NCBI RefSeq assembly: GCF_020404845.1
Contig: NZ_JAIOJZ010000028.1
Coordinates: 1-64,000 of the forward strand
From: Streptomyces hyderabadensis
GTDB lineage: Bacteria > Actinomycetota > Actinomycetes > Streptomycetales > Streptomycetaceae
Length of the DNA stretch: 64,000 nt
Direction: 5' to 3'
Part shown: positions 7,111 through 50,955 of the stretch, one piece after another
Numbering within the stretch: the stretch's first letter is position 1
How the letters are laid out: every line of letters begins with the position of its first letter
Translations under genes and position numbers: made by a program
The notes under the pieces: model-generated
Told to the model about the DNA's origin: nothing
Seen by the model: only the letters and a program-made list of their open reading frames with translations
The model's database searches: none

Positions 7111-7764
7111 ATGGCAGAGAGCATGACGGTGCACGGTGACCTGGAGCTGCTGGCGCGGGCCGGGCATCTCTTCTCCTCGGTCCGGGAGGAGTTCGTCTGC
7201 GCCGCCCGCGACCTCGACACCTGGCCCCGCCCGGCCGCCCGGCGGGTCGCCCGCACGCGGGTGCGGGACAGCGGCGCCTCGCAGGTGCGCAAGCTGCTCA
7301 GCCCGGCCGCGCTCGCCGACGAGGGCGCCCGGGCGCACCTGAACGAGCTGGCCGCCCGGGGCGCCCGGGTGCGGATCGCCGCCAGTGCCCTCCCGCACGA
7401 GACGATCATCATCGATCGGCGCTGGGCGATCCTCGCCGGAGCGGACGCGCCCGGGGGCCGCGCGTACACCGTGACCTCCGCGCCCACCCTCGTCGGCGGC
7501 GTGCACGCCCTGTTCGAAGCCGCCTGGGAGGCGGCCACCGACCTCGCGTCCTTCCTCCGGGGCGACCAGCCGCAGCTCGACGCCGGGAGCCGGACGGTGC
7601 TGCGCGCACTGGGATCGGGTGCCACCGACGAGGCAGCCGCTCGCGAACTGGGCATGTCCCTGCGCACCTACCGGCGCCGGGTCGCCGCACTGCTCGACGC
7701 CCTCGACGCCGGGTCGCGGTTCCAGGCGGGCGTACGCGCGGGCGAACTCGGACTCAGCGGCTGA
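7111..7764 (+). CDS. PLD/TrmB-like domain regulator with LuxR-type HTH
   Basis: 217 residues from ATG 7111. A -10-like CACAAT lies 6 nt before the ATG, so the transcript is probably leaderless. The N-terminal two thirds (FSSVREEFVCAARDLDTW ... LPHETIIIDRRWAILAG) resemble the PLD-like effector-sensing domain of TrmB/LuxR hybrids. The C terminus (about residues 155-205) is a helix-turn-helix (ATDEAAARELGMSLRTYRRR). It is a shorter relative of the four regulators at 46-50 kb. The ligand and targets are unknown; it likely regulates itself or the divergent reductase. Confidence 0.75.
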   Translation: MAESMTVHGDLELLARAGHLFSSVREEFVCAARDLDTWPRPAARRVARTRVRDSGASQVRKLLSPAALADEGARAHLNELAARGARVRIAASALPHETIIIDRRWAILAGADAPGGRAYTVTSAPTLVGGVHALFEAAWEAATDLASFLRGDQPQLDAGSRTVLRALGSGATDEAAARELGMSLRTYRRRVAALLDALDAGSRFQAGVRAGELGLSG

Positions 7765-42948: not shown

Positions 42949-44139
42949 ATGAGCACGAAGGACTTCATCGAGAAGGACTACTACAAGGTTCTCGGCGTCC
43001 CCAAGGACGCCACCGAGGCCGAGATCAAGAAGGCGTACCGGAAGCTCGCCCGCGAGAACCACCCGGACGCCAACAAGGGAAACGTCAAGGCGGAGGAGCG
43101 CTTCAAGGAGATCTCCGAGGCCAACGACATCCTCGGTGACCCCAAGAAACGCAAGGAGTACGACGAGGCCCGCGCCCTCTTCGGCAACGGAGGCTTCCGT
43201 CCGGGGCCGGGCGCGGGCGGCGGTGGCACCTTCAACTTCGACCTGGGCGACCTCTTCGGCGGCGGCGCCCAGGGCGGGGGAGGCCAGGGCGGCTTCGGCG
43301 GCGGCCTCGGGGACGTCTTCGGCGGTCTGTTCAACCGCACCGGAGGCGGACCCGGCACCGGCACGCGCACGCAGCCGCGGCGCGGGCAGGACATCGAGTC
43401 CGAGGTGACCCTGAGCTTCACCGAGGCCATCGAGGGCGCGACCGTGCCGCTCAGGATGTCCTCGCAGGCACCCTGCAAGGCCTGTTCGGGCACCGGCGAC
43501 AAGAACGGCACGCCGCGCGTGTGCCCGACCTGCGTCGGCACCGGCCAGGTCGCCCGGGGTTCGGGCGGCGGCTTCTCGCTCACCGACCCGTGCCCGGACT
43601 GCAAGGGCCGCGGCCTGATCGCCGAGGACCCCTGCGAGGTCTGCAAGGGCTCCGGACGCGCCAAGTCCTCGCGGACGATGCAGGTCCGGATCCCCGCCGG
43701 GGTCTCCGACGGGCAGCGCATCCGGCTGCGCGGCAAGGGCACGCCGGGCGAGCGGGGCGGTCCGGCGGGCGACCTGTACGTGGTCGTGCACGTCAAGGAA
43801 CACCCCGTCTTCGGACGCCGGGGCGACAACCTCACCGTCACCGTCCCGGTCACCTACGCCGAGGCGGCCCTCGGCGGCGAGGTCAGGGTCCCGACCCTGG
43901 GCGGTCCGCCCGTCACGCTGAAGCTGCCGGCGGGCACGCCCAACGGGCGCACCATGCGGGCCCGGGGCAAGGGCGCGGTCCGCAAGGACGGCACCCGCGG
44001 CGACCTCCTGGTCACCGTGGAGGTGAGTGTTCCGAAGGATCTGACGGGGAAGGCTCGTGACGCGCTGGAGGCGTATCGCGAGGCGACCGCGGACGAGGAT
44101 CCGCGGGCGGAGTTGTTCCAGGCCGCGAAGGGAGCTTGA
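42949..44139 (+). CDS. dnaJ: Co-chaperone DnaJ
   Basis: 396 residues from ATG 42949. The J domain (residues 9-74) has the HPD motif in ARENHPDANKG. A Gly/Phe-rich region follows, then four zinc-finger repeats CKACSGTG, CPTCVGTG, CPDCKGRG and CEVCKGSG, and two C-terminal substrate-binding domains. It stimulates DnaK ATPase activity. An AGGAGG site precedes the start. Confidence 0.98.
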   Translation: MSTKDFIEKDYYKVLGVPKDATEAEIKKAYRKLARENHPDANKGNVKAEERFKEISEANDILGDPKKRKEYDEARALFGNGGFRPGPGAGGGGTFNFDLGDLFGGGAQGGGGQGGFGGGLGDVFGGLFNRTGGGPGTGTRTQPRRGQDIESEVTLSFTEAIEGATVPLRMSSQAPCKACSGTGDKNGTPRVCPTCVGTGQVARGSGGGFSLTDPCPDCKGRGLIAEDPCEVCKGSGRAKSSRTMQVRIPAGVSDGQRIRLRGKGTPGERGGPAGDLYVVVHVKEHPVFGRRGDNLTVTVPVTYAEAALGGEVRVPTLGGPPVTLKLPAGTPNGRTMRARGKGAVRKDGTRGDLLVTVEVSVPKDLTGKARDALEAYREATADEDPRAELFQAAKGA

Positions 44140-45980: not shown

Positions 45981-46072
45981 GTCCCCGCGCGGGGTGGAGC
46001 CGTGTTGCGGAGCCGGTCCGGGCCGCGCATAGTTGCGCTGCGGAAGAGCCGGAACCGGGGGTGGGATGGGCG

Positions 46073-47101
46073 ATGGCCGGGCACGGGGCTCAGGAGCACC
46101 CGCACGGGGCCGACCGGCTCTGCGCGGCCGGAGACCGCCTGTACTCCCGGGCCGTGCGGCGCGGGCGGGTGCCCCGCCAGGACGCCGAGCCCGTCCCCTG
46201 CCTCCTGGAACTGGCCCTGCTGCACCCCGACCCCGACGACATGGACTGGCTGGTGCCGACCTCTCCGCAGGAGGTCATGACCCGGCTGCTGCGCGGGGTC
46301 CACGACGAGGTCAGCGCCAGTCAGCGGCGGGTGGGCTCGGCCGTGGAAGCCTTCGAGTGGTACGCGGGCCTGGGCAGGCTGCTCCAGACCCCGGCCGGCC
46401 CGGAGTCGACCGCGATCCGCGTCCTCGACGGCCTGTCCCGCATCCAGGCCGCGATGGACGAGGCGACGGCCGCCTGCACGACCGAGGTGCTCACCGTCCA
46501 GCCCGGCGGCATCCGGCGCGAGCACGAGCTGTCCGAGGGCCTGCACCGGGCGCTGGCGCTGCGCGGGCGCGGGGTGCGGATGCGGGACCTGTACACGCAC
46601 GTGGCCCGGCACGGGCAGGGCCTGCTCAACTACCTCGAACTCATGGGTGACGCGGTGGAGGCCCGCACCCTGGACGAGGTCATCGACCGCCTCATCCTCT
46701 TCGACCGCACGGTCGCCTTCATCCCCGCCAACACCGACCGCACGATGGCCCTCGAACTGCGCCACCCGGCCCTGATCGCCTACCTGATCACGGTCTTCGA
46801 ACGCCTCTGGCGCCTCGCCATCCCGCTGACGGCGCCCCTCCCCGACACGGGCATCGAGGGCATCTCCCACCGCGAGCAGTCCATCGCGGCGCTGCTCGCG
46901 GAGGGCCACCAGGACGCGGTGATCGCGGAACGCCTCGGCATCAGCGTCCGCACGGCCCGCGCGCACATCGCCCGCCTCTCGGAGACCCTGGGCGCGGCCA
47001 GCCGCACCCAGCTGGGCGTCCGCATAGCCCAGGCCGGCCTGGACGGCTCCCCGCGCACCCCGGTCATCCTTCCCGGTCGAGAATCCCCGACCGCCCGATG
47101 A
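46073..47101 (+). CDS. LuxR-type regulator with PLD/TrmB-like sensor (paralogue 1)
   Basis: 342 residues from ATG 46073 (GTG 46061 is also in frame). The N-terminal module (residues 10-75) reads GADRLCAAGDRLYSRAVRRG, PCLLELALLHPDPDDMDWLV. The middle PLD/TrmB-like domain has LDGLSRIQAAMDEATAACTTE, VLTVQPGGIRRE and DRTVAFIPANTDRTMALELR. The HTH (about 270-330) is IAALLAEGHQDAVIAERLGI then RTARAHIARLSETLGAASR. It is convergent with paralogue 2, overlapping it by 38 nt. DNA target and ligand are unknown. Confidence 0.8.
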   Translation: MAGHGAQEHPHGADRLCAAGDRLYSRAVRRGRVPRQDAEPVPCLLELALLHPDPDDMDWLVPTSPQEVMTRLLRGVHDEVSASQRRVGSAVEAFEWYAGLGRLLQTPAGPESTAIRVLDGLSRIQAAMDEATAACTTEVLTVQPGGIRREHELSEGLHRALALRGRGVRMRDLYTHVARHGQGLLNYLELMGDAVEARTLDEVIDRLILFDRTVAFIPANTDRTMALELRHPALIAYLITVFERLWRLAIPLTAPLPDTGIEGISHREQSIAALLAEGHQDAVIAERLGISVRTARAHIARLSETLGAASRTQLGVRIAQAGLDGSPRTPVILPGRESPTAR

Positions 47102-48041
47102 GATACCCGAGCTGAGCCCGGCTCTCGCTGCCGAGGGTGGCGGCGAGTTTGGCGATGTGGACGCGTGCGGTGCGGACGTTCATGCCGAGGCGGTCGGCGA
47201 TGTCTGCGTCGGTGTGGCCTTCGATGAGGAGGGCGGCGATGGCGCGTTGGCGGGGGGTGATGCCGTTGAGGGTGGGTTGTTGGACGGCTTGGGGGTGCAT
47301 GGGGGTGGCGAGGTGCCAGAGGCGGTCGAAGGTGTTGACGAAGTAGGCGATAAGGGCGGGGTGCCGCACTTCGAGGGCGAGTGAGCGGTCGGCGCTGGCG
47401 GGGATGAAGGCGACGGTGCGGTCGACGACGATGAGCCGTTCGGTGACCTCGTCGAGCGTGCGGGCCTCGACGTCGCCGGTCAGCTGCTCGTAGCGGGCGA
47501 GCACGTGTGGAGCGTGCCGGTAGGTGTGTTGGTAGAGGGTGCGGATACGCCCCCCTCGGTCGAGGAAAGCCTGGTCGCGCTGGAGCGATCGCAGGTTGTC
47601 CTGCCGCGGCGGAGCATTGGGGCCCTGGTACGGCTGGATGGTCAGCGCCTGCTCCGTGGCGTCGGCCAGAGCGTCGGCGATGGCCCGGCTGATCTGCTCC
47701 TTCCCTGTCACCAGCAGGAGCGCGGTGACGTCCGCTGCCTCGGAGGACTCCTCGCGTATCAGCGGCGCGAAGGCCTTCACCAGTTGCTCTTCGCGCCGGC
47801 GTTCGTCGGCGATGCGTCGGCCCGAGGCTCGCAGCAGGCTGTGCAGCGCTGCCATCGGAGAGGCCGGTTCGAGCCGGTCCGGGTCGTCGGGCGCCGGGTG
47901 GAGGAATCCGAAGTCGACCAGGCAGGGCGGCATGCCGGGCACCGGTTGCGTCACATGGCCCTCCTGCAGCGCGCGCTGGTACACCCGCATGCCTGCCGGG
48001 CACATCTCCTCCGGCCCGTGCTCCGGGTGCGACGCCGTCAT
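47064..48041 (-). CDS. LuxR-type regulator with PLD/TrmB-like sensor (paralogue 2)
   Basis: 325 residues from ATG 48041, overlapping the stop of paralogue 3 by ATGA. It shares the same three modules: EEMCPAGMRVYQRALQEGHV and FLHPAPDDPDRLEP; RGGRIRTLYQHTYRHAPHVL and DRTVAFIPASADRSLALEVR; and the HTH IAALLIEGHTDADIADRLGM. Its HTH-coding DNA is almost identical to that of paralogue 3 over ~120 bp, so the two arose by recent duplication or gene conversion. Confidence 0.8.
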   Translation of the reverse strand: MTASHPEHGPEEMCPAGMRVYQRALQEGHVTQPVPGMPPCLVDFGFLHPAPDDPDRLEPASPMAALHSLLRASGRRIADERRREEQLVKAFAPLIREESSEAADVTALLLVTGKEQISRAIADALADATEQALTIQPYQGPNAPPRQDNLRSLQRDQAFLDRGGRIRTLYQHTYRHAPHVLARYEQLTGDVEARTLDEVTERLIVVDRTVAFIPASADRSLALEVRHPALIAYFVNTFDRLWHLATPMHPQAVQQPTLNGITPRQRAIAALLIEGHTDADIADRLGMNVRTARVHIAKLAATLGSESRAQLGYLIGRSGILDREG

Positions 48042-49066
48042 TGCTCGACTTCCCGTTGTCCGAGGATTCCCGACTCGGCGATCAAATAGCCGAGTTGTGC
48101 GCGGCTCTCGCTGCCGAGGGTGGCGGCGAGTTTGGCGATGTGGACGCGTGCGGTGCGGACGTTCATGCCGAGGCGGTCGGCGATGTCGGCGTCGGTGTGG
48201 CCTTCGACGAGGAGGGAGGCGATGGTGCGTTGACGCGATGTGACGCCGTTCAGGGATCGGTGTTGGGCCGCCTGTGGATGCATCGGAGTAGCGAGCCGCC
48301 AGAGACGCTCGAAGGTGGTCACGAAATAGTCGATGAGAGCGGGGTGGCGGACTTCGAGCGCGAGTGAGCGGTCGGCGTTGGCGGGGATGAAGGCGATCCG
48401 GCGGTCGACGACGATGAGGCGATCGGTCACCTCGTCCAGGGAGCGCGCCTCGGCGTCTCCGCGCAGTTGCTCGTAGCGGGCGCGGACCAACGGCAGGTGA
48501 CGCTGCGTATGCTGGTAGAGGGTGCGAATCCGCCCACCGCGGTCGAGCATTTCCTGATCACGTTGCAAGGACAGGTGCTGGGACTGGCGTCCGCGCTGAT
48601 CGCCGTAGTGGGCGTTGGGTTGGATGCACAGCAGTTCGTTGGTGGCATCCGCCATTGCTTCGCTGATGGCTTCGTTGATCTGCGGGACGCCGCTGAGGAC
48701 GCGTACGGCCGCGGCGTCGCCACCGGCCGTACGTCGGCCGTCCACCTGCATCAACGGTTCGAACGTCGCGGACAGCCGGGCTTCCCGCCGCCTTTCCTCG
48801 GCGATGCGCTGTGCGGATACGTCCAGCATCCGGTGCAGGGCGACGGCCGGAGCGACCGGCTCCAGCCAGTCGGGTTCGCCGACGCGAGGCTGCAGCAGTC
48901 CATATGCCGTCAGGCAGGGCGCCGCGGCAGCCTCTGAGTCCGGTACGCGGCCCTCACGCAGTGCCTGGGTGTACAGCAGTGTTCCGGCGGTGCAGAGATC
49001 TTCGGGACCGTGCTCCGGATGCGTCTCGTGCGGTGCCGCCGTGGGCTCGCGTGCCTCCCCCGTCAC
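48038..49066 (-). CDS. LuxR-type regulator with PLD/TrmB-like sensor (paralogue 3)
   Basis: 342 residues from GTG 49066, which overlaps the stop of paralogue 4 (GTGA). Modules: EDLCTAGTLLYTQALREGRV, PCLTAYGLLQPRVGEPDWLE; LSGVPQINEAISEAMADATN, RGGRIRTLYQHTQRHLPLVR, DRRIAFIPANADRSLALEVR; HTH IASLLVEGHTDADIADRLGM, RTARVHIAKLAATLGSESR. Middle gene of a coupled three-gene operon. Confidence 0.8.
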   Translation of the reverse strand: MTGEAREPTAAPHETHPEHGPEDLCTAGTLLYTQALREGRVPDSEAAAAPCLTAYGLLQPRVGEPDWLEPVAPAVALHRMLDVSAQRIAEERRREARLSATFEPLMQVDGRRTAGGDAAAVRVLSGVPQINEAISEAMADATNELLCIQPNAHYGDQRGRQSQHLSLQRDQEMLDRGGRIRTLYQHTQRHLPLVRARYEQLRGDAEARSLDEVTDRLIVVDRRIAFIPANADRSLALEVRHPALIDYFVTTFERLWRLATPMHPQAAQHRSLNGVTSRQRTIASLLVEGHTDADIADRLGMNVRTARVHIAKLAATLGSESRAQLGYLIAESGILGQREVEQ

Positions 49067-50073
49067 AGGCCGTGCCCGTTGGTGACGCCCTGGTCGTCCT
49101 GCTCCAGGAGCCCCGACTGGGCGATGAGGTAACCCAGCTGAGCGCGACTGCCGCTCCCTAGTGCGGAGGCCAGTTTGGCGATGTGCGCGCGGCACGTGCG
49201 CACGTTCATGCCCAGGCGCCGGGCGATCGCCTCGTCGACGTGGCCTTCGACCAGAAGCTTGGCTATGGAGTGCTGGATGTCGGTGATGCCGTCGGGCGCC
49301 GTCTCGTAGGGGGCGCCGGCGGTGAGCGGCACTGCTCGCCCCCAGATGAACTCGAACACCTTGATCAGATAACGGACCAGCCCGGGGTGGCGGATTTCCA
49401 GCGCGACCTGCCGGTCGTCCCGGATGGGGATGAAAGCCACGGTCTCGTCGCAGATGATGAGTCGCTCGACGAGCTCGTCGATGGTGCGGTACTCGGCTTT
49501 CCCGTTCGGGAACTGGTCCACGTAGGCCATGCGTTCGGGGCTGTACCGTGCCGTGTGCTGATAGAGGGTGCGGATGCGTACCCCACGGTCGACCAGCGTC
49601 CTGTCGCGCTCCAGTCCCTCGATGAGCCTGCGCTCGGGGTGCCGGGCACTCGGCTGGACCGTGAGCATCTCCACCACGCACTGGTCCGTGGCCAGGTCAA
49701 GGGCCGCGTTGATGCGGTCGAGCCCCTCCAGGACGGTGATCGAGTGGGTTGGTGCCGCACCCTGCGCGCTGAGGGCCATGAAGGGTTCGAAGGCCGCAGC
49801 AAGCTCGATCGAGGTGCGTCGACGCTCCGATATCTCGTGCTCAATCGGATTCAGCCGCCGCGCGAGGGCGACCGCCGGAGACACGGGCAGGAGCCAGTTG
49901 GCATCGTCTGGGTCGGGGTGCAGGAGTGCGAACTCCATCAGACAGGGGACCGGATCCGCCTCGCTGCGGGCGACACGTCCGGTGCGCAGGGCGTTCGCGT
50001 AGAGGCGCGCCCCCGCCTCACACAGTTCAGTAACTGCATGGGGATGTGTCGCTTTGGTCTGATTTGTTGTCAA
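49063..50073 (-). CDS. LuxR-type regulator with PLD/TrmB-like sensor (paralogue 4)
   Basis: 336 residues from TTG 50073, with GGTGGAG at good spacing. Modules: TELCEAGARLYANALRTGRV, PCLMEFALLHPDPDDANWLL; LEGLDRINAALDLATDQCVV, RGVRIRTLYQHTARYSPERM, DETVAFIPIRDDRQVALEIR; HTH IAKLLVEGHVDEAIARRLGM, RTCRAHIAKLASALGSGSR. It heads the minus-strand operon and is divergent from the secreted-peptide gene, sharing a 113-bp promoter region with it, so it is the best candidate regulator of that peptide. Confidence 0.82.
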   Translation of the reverse strand: MTTNQTKATHPHAVTELCEAGARLYANALRTGRVARSEADPVPCLMEFALLHPDPDDANWLLPVSPAVALARRLNPIEHEISERRRTSIELAAAFEPFMALSAQGAAPTHSITVLEGLDRINAALDLATDQCVVEMLTVQPSARHPERRLIEGLERDRTLVDRGVRIRTLYQHTARYSPERMAYVDQFPNGKAEYRTIDELVERLIICDETVAFIPIRDDRQVALEIRHPGLVRYLIKVFEFIWGRAVPLTAGAPYETAPDGITDIQHSIAKLLVEGHVDEAIARRLGMNVRTCRAHIAKLASALGSGSRAQLGYLIAQSGLLEQDDQGVTNGHGL

Positions 50074-50186
50074 ATCTCCACCCCCCAGGGTCCTGAACGT
50101 GCAGGAACATGATGCACCGATTGTGTGGCCATGACGTGCCTATATGAGCCATCGTCTTATCCGACGGGGGAAGAGGGGACCTTCAA
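50074..50186. promoter_or_regulatory. Divergent promoter region, regulator operon / peptide operon
   Basis: 113 bp between TTG 50073 and GTG 50187. It is AT-richer than its surroundings, with TCCTGAACGTGCAGGA (inverted CCTG/CAGG) at about 50091-50106 and a TATATGAGCC stretch near 50141-50150 that could be a -10 region for the peptide gene. GAAGAGGGG at 50170-50178 is the peptide ribosome site. Confidence 0.5.
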
Positions 50187-50396
50187 GTGAGGACGAAGCT
50201 GGCTATGTCTAAGAGAATGCTTCGCTCGGTGCTTGTCGCCGCCTTCTCCGCCGTTGTGGCCTTCGGAACTCTGAGTGGCCTCTCCGTGGCGAAGGGCGAT
50301 GCCCGAGCGGACAGCGTCTGGTCGCTTACGACGGTGACCGCTACGCCTGCTGGCGCGGACGGGGAAGCTCTCACAGACGACAGTGTGTGGTCTTGA
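50187..50396 (+). CDS. Secreted pre-peptide with terminal DSVWS repeats
   Basis: 69 residues from GTG 50187 (an ATG at 50205, codon 7, is also usable). A signal peptide has a basic n-region (SKRMLR), a hydrophobic core (SVLVAAFSAVVAFGTLSGL) and a predicted cut after DARA. The mature 28-mer then begins exactly with DSVWS and ends exactly with DSVWS, with a Thr/Ala/Gly-rich centre. There is no Cys, so no disulfide or thioether is expected. The stop is one base before the ATG of the Rieske-like gene. I do not recognise a named family; a signalling or modified peptide is inferred. Confidence 0.78.
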   Translation: MRTKLAMSKRMLRSVLVAAFSAVVAFGTLSGLSVAKGDARADSVWSLTTVTATPAGADGEALTDDSVWS

Positions 50397-50397
50397 C

Positions 50398-50733
50398 ATG
50401 ACGACTCCACCCGATGACCGCTCCTTCCGGCGAGAAATGGCCACCGCCTACCGCTCCGGCTGGCACTTCATCGACCTGGTCACCGCGATCCCGCACGCCG
50501 GTGACTCCCTGATGGTGACCGTCTTCGGCGAGCCGGTCGTCGTCACGCTGGACGAGGACGGCGACGTGCGTGCGTACCGGTGTCTGCGGCGGCCTCGGGG
50601 GGCGCCGCAGCCCGTCCGGTGTGCCATCCGGTACGGAATGATCTTTGTGAACCTGGACCAGCGGGACCACCGGCTCGAGCAGCCGGAGGCCCCCGAAGTG
50701 AGGACCATCTCGGCCACCCCCCGCAGTGCCTGA
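50398..50733 (+). CDS. Rieske-like protein lacking iron-sulfur ligands
   Basis: 111 residues from ATG 50398. The sequence follows the N-terminal Rieske domain of ring-hydroxylating oxygenases: SGWHFIDLVTAIPHAGDSLM, FGEPVVVTLDEDGDVRAYR and PVRCAIRYGMIFVNLDQ. At the first cluster loop, normally CxHRG, it reads CLRRPRGA, so the His is gone. The second loop (CxxH) is deleted, and the protein jumps from RGAPQ to PVRC. It therefore cannot hold a [2Fe-2S] cluster and lacks the catalytic domain. One nt separates it from the peptide gene, suggesting it binds or processes that peptide or acts in the same pathway. Confidence 0.75.
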   Translation: MTTPPDDRSFRREMATAYRSGWHFIDLVTAIPHAGDSLMVTVFGEPVVVTLDEDGDVRAYRCLRRPRGAPQPVRCAIRYGMIFVNLDQRDHRLEQPEAPEVRTISATPRSA

Positions 50734-50817: not shown

Positions 50818-50955
50818 TCGCATGTGCGGACATCTCGCGACACCAGCCGGTTCCGCGACTGGCCGAAAAGGCACTCGTGCGGTGCGGCCCGTTCACTGCC
50901 GCGTCACCCGCCCCCCTGAGCCTCGGCGTCTCCCGGGGAGAATTGCGGCTCCCGA

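Follow-up and report, generated by a model that had tools for sequence, protein, structure and literature searches.

A family of repeated-word peptides and a covarying neighbouring regulator point to undescribed peptide signalling in Streptomyces

The gene at 50187..50396 (+) of the analyzed DNA, a 64,000-nucleotide stretch of a Streptomyces hyderabadensis contig that we call the window, encodes a peptide precursor of 69 amino acids, and together with the neighbouring regulator R4 it suggests that Streptomyces cells communicate by a peptide system that has not been described. We consider it very likely that both belong to a linear-peptide pheromone-receptor system, RRNPP-like in its working and with unrelated receptors. 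What was computed is a family of ORFs, a purifying selection that keeps short repeated words identical, a constant gene neighbourhood, a covariation between R4 and the peptide and the predicted fold of R4. It is the covariation in combination with the selection that would tie the peptide as ligand to R4 as receptor.

The peptide gene is supported by its ORF, by homologues in a family and by a comparison of synonymous and non-synonymous changes. The ORF starts with GTG at 50187 and stops at 50394-50396, and a G-rich stretch resembling a ribosome-binding site ends 7 nt ahead of the start. Residues 1-41 (50187..50309, +) are a predicted Sec signal peptide with a basic start, a hydrophobic core and a terminal ARA; its cleavage is inferred, the cut being a by-eye call that is otherwise backed only by a hydrophobicity rule. 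After AKGDARA the precursor reads DSVWSLTTVTATPAGADGEALTDDSVWS, followed by the stop codon, which confirms the original prediction of a 28-residue product with DSVWS at both ends. The first copy is located at 50310..50324 and the second, exactly C-terminal, at 50379..50393 (both +), and their codons, GAC-AGC-GTC-TGG-TCG and GAC-AGT-GTG-TGG-TCT, show three synonymous and no amino-acid differences. No Pfam or NCBIfam model matched the window peptide above its curated cut-off.

Using the window ORF as query, homologues were detected in 23 other genomes of the genus with E-values from 2e-20 to 0.0024. A profile matched at E<=0.01 in 226 of 295 Streptomyces genomes, with the reservation that near-threshold matches may be false, and gave no match at this threshold in 69 of the 295. 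We read 185 loci, which gave 167 distinct peptides and 165 loci with a usable R4. Of 201 loci, 185 were kept: 182 were chosen by pattern, L006, L008, L070 and L072 were added and L094 was removed by hand; L025-L030, L093 and L095-L101 are without a family peptide and were left out, and L110, a profile match with none by sequence pattern, was excluded. Beyond the first 30, 100 further profile-match loci were taken in order of score from genomes that were not yet represented. As the profile holds Trp columns and the best scorers were taken first, the sample favours DxxW words. A contig scan with an ATG-start query yielded 31 loci and missed homologues with a GTG start.

Across the family the profile alignment is conserved in the N-terminal half (VRTKPTMxKRMLRSVL...) and variable in the remainder, apart from words of the form D/N/E-x-x-W. 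At least two xxxW words after residue 24 were found in 123 of the 167 distinct peptides and a single word in 44, the number of copies per precursor ranging from one to 18. A single tetrapeptide is common to all words in 115 of the 123 multi-word peptides, and in 76 this extends to the pentapeptide. Eight multi-word peptides are not uniform in the tetrapeptide. In five of them this is due solely to an additional Trp that does not belong to a word (L017, L161, L172, L180, L190), which leaves three with truly non-uniform words (L019, L053, L123). Examples of arrays, counted by eye, are DTSWP x2, DSKWP x3, DSGWT x4, DLVWD x4, EISW x4 and DSTW x9. Across 165 loci the words comprise 33 tetrapeptides and 61 pentapeptides. 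What is conserved is D-x-x-W and the identity of the word within a gene, and not DSVWS itself. Homologous loci lacking any DSVWS peptide had been proposed as a refutation, which is misleading because the word differs between strains.

The length of the mature peptide is uncertain because the residue after W varies in genes with DSTW or DSSW words, where no more than 7 of 40 multi-copy genes keep it constant, compared with 74 of 81 other multi-copy genes. Outside the DSTW/DSSW group a pentapeptide is the likely mature form because of this uniformity and because the residue after W covaries with R4; in the DSTW/DSSW genes it is perhaps a tetrapeptide, as the residue varies there. The precursor ends exactly with the pentapeptide in 28 of 44 single-word and 30 of 123 multi-word peptides, and a small-x-small site just ahead of the first copy is present in only 86 of 167.

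For a single ORF picked from a genome, the DSVWS repeat by itself is moderately unlikely and not decisive: some pentamer was repeated in 203 of 200,000 shuffles of the window 28-mer, and a chance repeat in a spurious ORF could be argued from this number. We accept the repeat as real because pentamer repeats in the family are far above shuffles; after residue 30 they occur in 117 of 167 distinct homologues, with 2.9 expected. The codons of the words, written x0-x1-x2-W-+1, also speak against chance. Between consecutive copies the codons for D, x1 and x2 are identical in 692 cases and differ synonymously in 266 and non-synonymously in 5, whereas four linker codons between the copies show 200 synonymous and 684 non-synonymous differences. 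Of the possible single-nucleotide changes in the motif codons 81% would be non-synonymous. Judged by these counts of 266 against 5, the copies are mostly old and their identity is held as peptide and not as DNA. We see in this strong support for translation of the ORF and for the word as the part that counts. A spurious ORF is ruled out by the same contrast, and with the breadth of the family, the neighbourhood, the shared tetrapeptides and the covariation also standing against it, we regard chance as a negligible explanation.

The gene neighbourhood is constant. R4 (49063..50073, -), a protein of 336 amino acids with a TTG start, is the proposed peptide receptor and transcription factor on the basis of its fold and the covariation. 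It is followed by the paralogous regulators R3 (48038..49066, -), whose GTG start, called by eye, overlaps the R4 stop, and R2 (47064..48041, -), whose ATG overlaps the R3 stop; R1 (46061..47101, +) is a further paralogue, whose orthologues hardly vary at the pocket residues in 96 loci. The original description of a sensor-regulator family with four members beside the peptide thus holds, four paralogues being present in the window. The suggested search for peptides beside homologous regulators was run from the peptide side, and every one of the 185 loci, which were picked through the peptide and not through its neighbours, has a family regulator upstream and a Rieske-like ORF downstream. The R4 and the Rieske-like frames are open in 167 of 167 distinct loci, and 165 R4 show the HTH motif that was expected. 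In the 47 loci listed individually, the regulator closest to the peptide is divergent, with a match starting about 110-126 bp upstream, and the match to the Rieske-like protein begins between -3 and +6 nt relative to the stop codon of the peptide gene. The R4-peptide intergenic region (50074..50186, no strand assigned) is strongly conserved across 167 loci and contains the dyad TCCTG-N6-CAGGA (50091..50106), a candidate operator for which there are no binding data.

Where about 5 kb upstream was available, the commonest gene orders were R1+ R3- R4- (55 loci), R1+ R4- (22), R4- alone (14) and R1+ R3- R3- R4- (10). Up to four or five tandem R3/R4-like regulators, and fragments of them, were seen in L043, L157, L197 and others, and receptors have apparently been gained and lost at such loci. 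An ATG-initiated extension of R4, "MFRTLGGGDL", which is present at many loci, is likely an over-call because a good ribosome-binding site precedes the TTG start. Elsewhere in the window, 7474-7758 (+) gives a weak regulator-like match with 35% identity to R4 residues 227-323 (E 4e-7), which is mostly HTH.

The downstream protein of 111 amino acids (50398..50733, +) starts 1 nt past the peptide stop and is predicted to have a Rieske fold. Its model has a pLDDT of 72.4 and compares with NagGH (Z 8.3, rmsd 3.2 over 78) and BphA3 (Z 7.4, rmsd 1.2 over 57). Instead of the CxH...CxxH cluster ligands it reads C62-L-R and C75-A-I-R, so that both His ligand positions are Arg; C62 is present in 163 and C75 in 166 of 167 proteins, and both Arg are invariant in 36 aligned Rieske-like proteins. 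The position of this protein directly behind the peptide in all loci, its high conservation regardless of the peptide type and the invariant Trp of the word would fit a RiPP-like pathway, in which the words are modified, the Rieske-like protein assists in altering the Trp and the signal is the peptide in its modified form. We hold this to be improbable, as the protein lacks both His ligands and is merely 111 amino acids long, and as paralogous peptide loci gave no Rieske-like tblastn match within flanks of about 1.5 kb. As a guess, the Rieske-like protein is perhaps a partner of R4 or of an importer.

R4 is predicted to be a TrmB-like protein with a LuxR-type HTH. An AF2 model based on an alignment of 50 R4 (taken from 75 of the 165) and 4 paralogues reached a pLDDT of 83.7 and a pTM of 0.50 and consists of an N-terminal winged HTH, a long helix, an alpha/beta domain at about 107-250 and a C-terminal HTH. 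The best Foldseek matches of the model were TrmBL2 (E 7e-15) and TrmB. In the structural comparisons (VIA) it matched NucT with Z 16.8 (rmsd 2.2, 135 aligned), the sugar-binding domain of TrmB, 2f5t, with Z 15.2 (rmsd 2.6 over 129) and TrmBL2 with Z 15.9 and an rmsd of 19.3 over 228 aligned residues, the latter indicating that the domains are placed differently. Residues 259-330 of the model matched VqmA, with Z about 11 over 65-68 residues, and ChrA. PF00196 is above the cut-off in R1, R2 and R3 and below it in R4, and no TPR, autoinducer-binding or TrmB model was among the Pfam matches of R4 at E<=1.

With its winged HTH, helix and PLD-like ligand domain at residues of about 12-250, R4 would resemble the archaeal TrmB and TrmBL2. 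It differs from TrmB, whose domain binds sugar (2f5t), in that its residues track the peptide, the peptide gene is adjacent and a LuxR-type HTH is added at the C-terminus; in place of a sugar, the covariation points to a peptide as the ligand of R4. This GerE-type HTH is shared with LuxR, CviR and VqmA. Unlike LuxR and other acyl-homoserine lactone receptors, R4 shows no autoinducer-binding domain in the Pfam search, and the TrmB/PLD fold is predicted in its place.

The main support for a receptor function comes from the covariation over 165 loci (R4 numbering as in the window). Met136 accompanies Ser at x1 in 103 of 103 loci, and Val136 accompanies Thr in 45 of 46, the exception being one Leu; with Leu, Ile or Val at x1, Met136 is found in none of 16. 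Asp157 is present in 149 of 149 loci with Ser or Thr at x1 and in 0 of 16 with the aliphatic residues, all 16 of which have Gly, Ala or Ser157. For x0, Arg/His145 occurs with Asp in 117 of 149 loci and with Asn in 0 of 15, all 15 having Met, Val, Ile or Leu145, and His110 follows the same line (138 of 149 with Asp, 0 of 15 with Asn). At x2, His goes with Asp143 (10/10), Lys or Arg with Ser/Phe145 (13/13), Gly or Ala with Ala153 (35/39) and Thr, Val, His or Ile with Gly153 (63/70), and Ser is mixed at residue 153 (25 Gly, 15 Ala). Finally, Pro at +1 is accompanied by Gln221 in 41 of 43 loci. Many of these pairings are complements in size or charge, as in a binding pocket. The covarying residues 136, 143, 145, 149, 153 and 157 lie in strand 135-140 and the next loop and helix of the model; distances were not measured.

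The association also holds on a tree for which R4 without residues 101-261 was combined with the Rieske-like protein. Of 39 changes at x1, 29 fall on branches with a change at residue 136, where 7.6 are expected (z 8.9, next column 2.5); the signal is weaker for x0, x2 and +1, with best z of 5.2, 4.7 and 3.8. Among the six closest R4 pairs whose words differ at x1 only, by Ser or Thr, there are four independent word pairs (DTRWD/DSRWD, DSIWS/DTIWS, DTHWP/DSHWP, DTVWS/DSVWS), all of which show V136/M136, the R4s differing elsewhere too. Eleven chosen columns account for 5.7% of the differences when close R4s have unlike tetrapeptides (391 pairs) and for 1.9% when they share the pentapeptide (215 pairs), which is an illustration and not a test because the columns were picked from the same data. 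It is possible that exchange of a peptide and receptor cassette could inflate the coincident changes; a single column far above the rest would argue against such exchange alone. As a further reservation, the tree itself draws on other parts of R4.

R1 from the same loci served as a control and has Val136 in 95 of 96 and Gly143, Arg145, Ala157 and Leu181 in 96 of 96 proteins, whatever the peptide. In 101 R3 proteins the residues at the positions of the R4 pocket vary and do not follow the home word in a comparable way; there is a faint shift at 157 in 7 loci with Ile or Leu at x1. Therefore, the covariation belongs to R4 and not to the whole locus. Read by the R4 code, the R1 residues would fit an aliphatic x1, inferred to be part of a word such as D-[L/I]-G-W. 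The suggestion that the peptide is a pheromone or receptor ligand is supported by this covariation, while export, cutting, uptake and effect of the peptide are not shown.

A small, exported-looking peptide that is hypervariable between strains could also be an antimicrobial or kin-killing agent, with R4 merely regulating it or conferring immunity. By general knowledge, a short acidic Trp word, often C-terminal, would be unusual for a bacteriocin. What constantly accompanies the peptide is a regulator together with a Rieske-like protein, and the covariation maps to the TrmB-like domain of a transcription factor; we find this explanation hardly credible.

Regulators of this family are not restricted to the window locus. 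The same genome contains a fifth strong regulator in another place (L096:1453-2583, -), and divergent from it a signal-peptide-like ORF of 53 amino acids ending in DSQWG (L096:2614-2775, +). An ORF resembling GTP cyclohydrolase II, named by eye, adjoins this system. The peptide of the fifth locus as query was found in 1 of 61 genomes, its own, and the regulator worked better as query. We scanned 59 paralogue loci from Streptomyces and another family of the order together with 95 control chunks, and a signal-peptide-like ORF in which a D/N/E-xxW word is repeated or C-terminal was present in 11 of the 59 and 1 of the 95 (Fisher p 1e-4). Among the 11 cases, L232 and L233 are nearly identical to each other, and L272 and L275 are less certain than the rest. 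The lone control match, an ORF ending in DSGWG (L048, about 13085, +), lies beside a family regulator (12734-12006, -); the presence of a regulator was examined for this control chunk only and not for the other 94.

Looser inspection of the paralogue loci, without a control of its own, gave the words DSAWG, DPAWG and DTGWG. In another family of the order (L280, L283, L288, L290), ORFs ending in CGACWE, CAGCWS and CLSCWG were seen beside regulators, again without control, and CxxCW may be a possible second class of words. Of 6 loci (L299-L302, L304, L305) from one genus of yet another family of the class, 4 have signal-peptide-like DxxW ORFs with the words DTSWG (twice in L299), DSSWG, DTGWP and DTSWG, three directly after an AxA site; there was no control, and the ORFs at L299-L305 are on the downstream side of the regulator in convergent and not divergent orientation. 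Regulator matches at E<=1e-20 were obtained in 45 of 148 genomes of the class, a number that includes Streptomyces genomes and short matches. At many paralogous regulator loci no peptide was seen, including a group beside a transporter that is MFS-like by eye (L248-L250, L253-L256, L258), possibly receptor-only members.

The rules derived from R4 hold in part in these paralogues. Asp157 is present in 7 of 7 cases with Ser or Thr at x1 (5 independent) and in 0 of 5 with Pro or His, and Arg145 accompanies all 13 Asp words. As Asp157 is also common in paralogues without peptide (5 of the 6 shown), the Pro and His cases carry the weight of this check. A weakly assigned exception, NISWD (L272), keeps D157, and the rule for residue 136 fails in distant paralogues, which have L136 with Ser at x1.

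The paralogous systems also bear on the idea that the peptide is a ligand of R4 without being intercellular, and that it reports on the export or proteolysis of the cell itself under secretion or heat stress. Genes resembling hspR and clpB flank the locus (a DnaJ-like ORF at 42949, a MerR-type, HspR-like ORF at 44136 and a ClpB-like ORF at 50822, all named by eye), and the covariation of R4 would fit a private ligand as well. However, such a self-report has no need for a hypervariable word or for extra R3 copies with variable pockets, and paralogous systems are found elsewhere, for example beside the GTP cyclohydrolase II-like ORF. We therefore give this explanation only an outside chance.

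For the pheromone-receptor system that we prefer, the following course is conceivable. The precursor would be exported by Sec and cut by signal peptidase ahead of the first D-x-x-W word, and extracellular peptidases would trim it to a short peptide, DSVWS in the window and otherwise D-x-x-W plus usually one residue. The peptide may then return into cells through an oligopeptide importer and bind to the PLD-like domain of the cytosolic R4, which would alter transcription at the conserved divergent promoter and probably elsewhere, in a direction that is inferred. Several copies per precursor would increase the yield, and strain-specific words followed by R4 would result in pherotypes. The membrane traffic and the sign of the regulation are presumed from the anatomy of the locus and from RRNPP systems; export, cutting, import, binding, the direction of regulation and the role of the Rieske-like protein are all inferences, and no mature peptide, importer or protease was identified.

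Like Rap-Phr, PlcR-PapR, NprR-NprX and Rgg-SHP of the RRNPP type, the system has a small exported-looking propeptide gene adjoining the gene of an intracellular receptor, and the peptide would be short and linear. Several RRNPP receptors are themselves transcription factors, and specificity groups are known. In contrast to RRNPP, R4 is predicted to be TrmB/PLD-like with a LuxR-type HTH, and membership in RRNPP is ruled out by the absence of a TPR domain; compared with RRNPP of Bacillota, the phylum is another one and a precursor carries up to 18 words. In the accessible part of an RRNPP survey the criteria were a TPR receptor of 250-500 amino acids and an adjacent gene for an exported propeptide (PMC10075063). 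R4 meets the size criterion, and surveys keyed to TPR in the way this part describes could not see the R4 system because R4 is not a TPR protein.

As an extracellular signal the peptide would stand beside the butyrolactones and the BldK peptide of the same genus. Butyrolactones are small molecules made by enzymes, unlike a ribosomal peptide. BldK takes up a 655-Da peptide that, in the portion of the source available, is presumed to be a signal for the formation of aerial mycelium (PMC9640686). The mass of DTHWP, a word of two distinct peptides at three loci, is 654.28 Da and thus near this value, from which no conclusion is drawn; for DSVWS the computed mass is 592.25. According to available sections of another article, quorum sensing in Streptomyces relies predominantly on butyrolactones or butanolides, and a search of one Streptomyces genome for signalling-peptide genes yielded no strong candidates (PMC11019849). 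We found no description of the peptide-receptor family in the open-access literature, preprints and subscription papers being outside this scope, and none in the accessible parts of PMC9640686, PMC11303876, PMC4748050, PMC11264864, PMC10075063 and PMC11019849. OvmZ and OvmW were rejected as relatives of R4 and the Rieske-like protein; within the limits of the available text, OvmW is a small HTH protein and OvmZ has no conserved domain (PMC11264864).

A wider reading, which we put forward tentatively as possible rather than probable, is a peptide language of the genus, in which each Streptomyces speaks one DxxW word of dozens and senses it by a co-evolving R4. If this applies, R3, which is variable in number and has pockets unlike the home peptide, would listen to the words of other strains, and the near-invariant R1 would hear a word that many strains share. 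The receptor superfamily and its DxxW and CxxCW peptides, which extend to other families of the order and class, would then rank with RRNPP and LuxI/LuxR as another major class of signalling in bacteria. It would have escaped notice because the search for receptors relied on TPR domains and because peptides of this length go unannotated.

On a coarse scale the system adds a new class to peptide quorum sensing, and to our knowledge the ligand and the receptor families are outside the known ones. It provides candidates for extracellular peptide signals in Streptomyces, of which the 655-Da peptide taken up by BldK (PMC9640686) might be an example. If true, a pheromone system of this kind could explain strain-specific self-recognition. 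Streptomyces and its relatives are major sources of antibiotics in use, and a pheromone that is made by the ribosome and whose receptor code can be read would, if true, offer cheap synthetic inducers for silent gene clusters.
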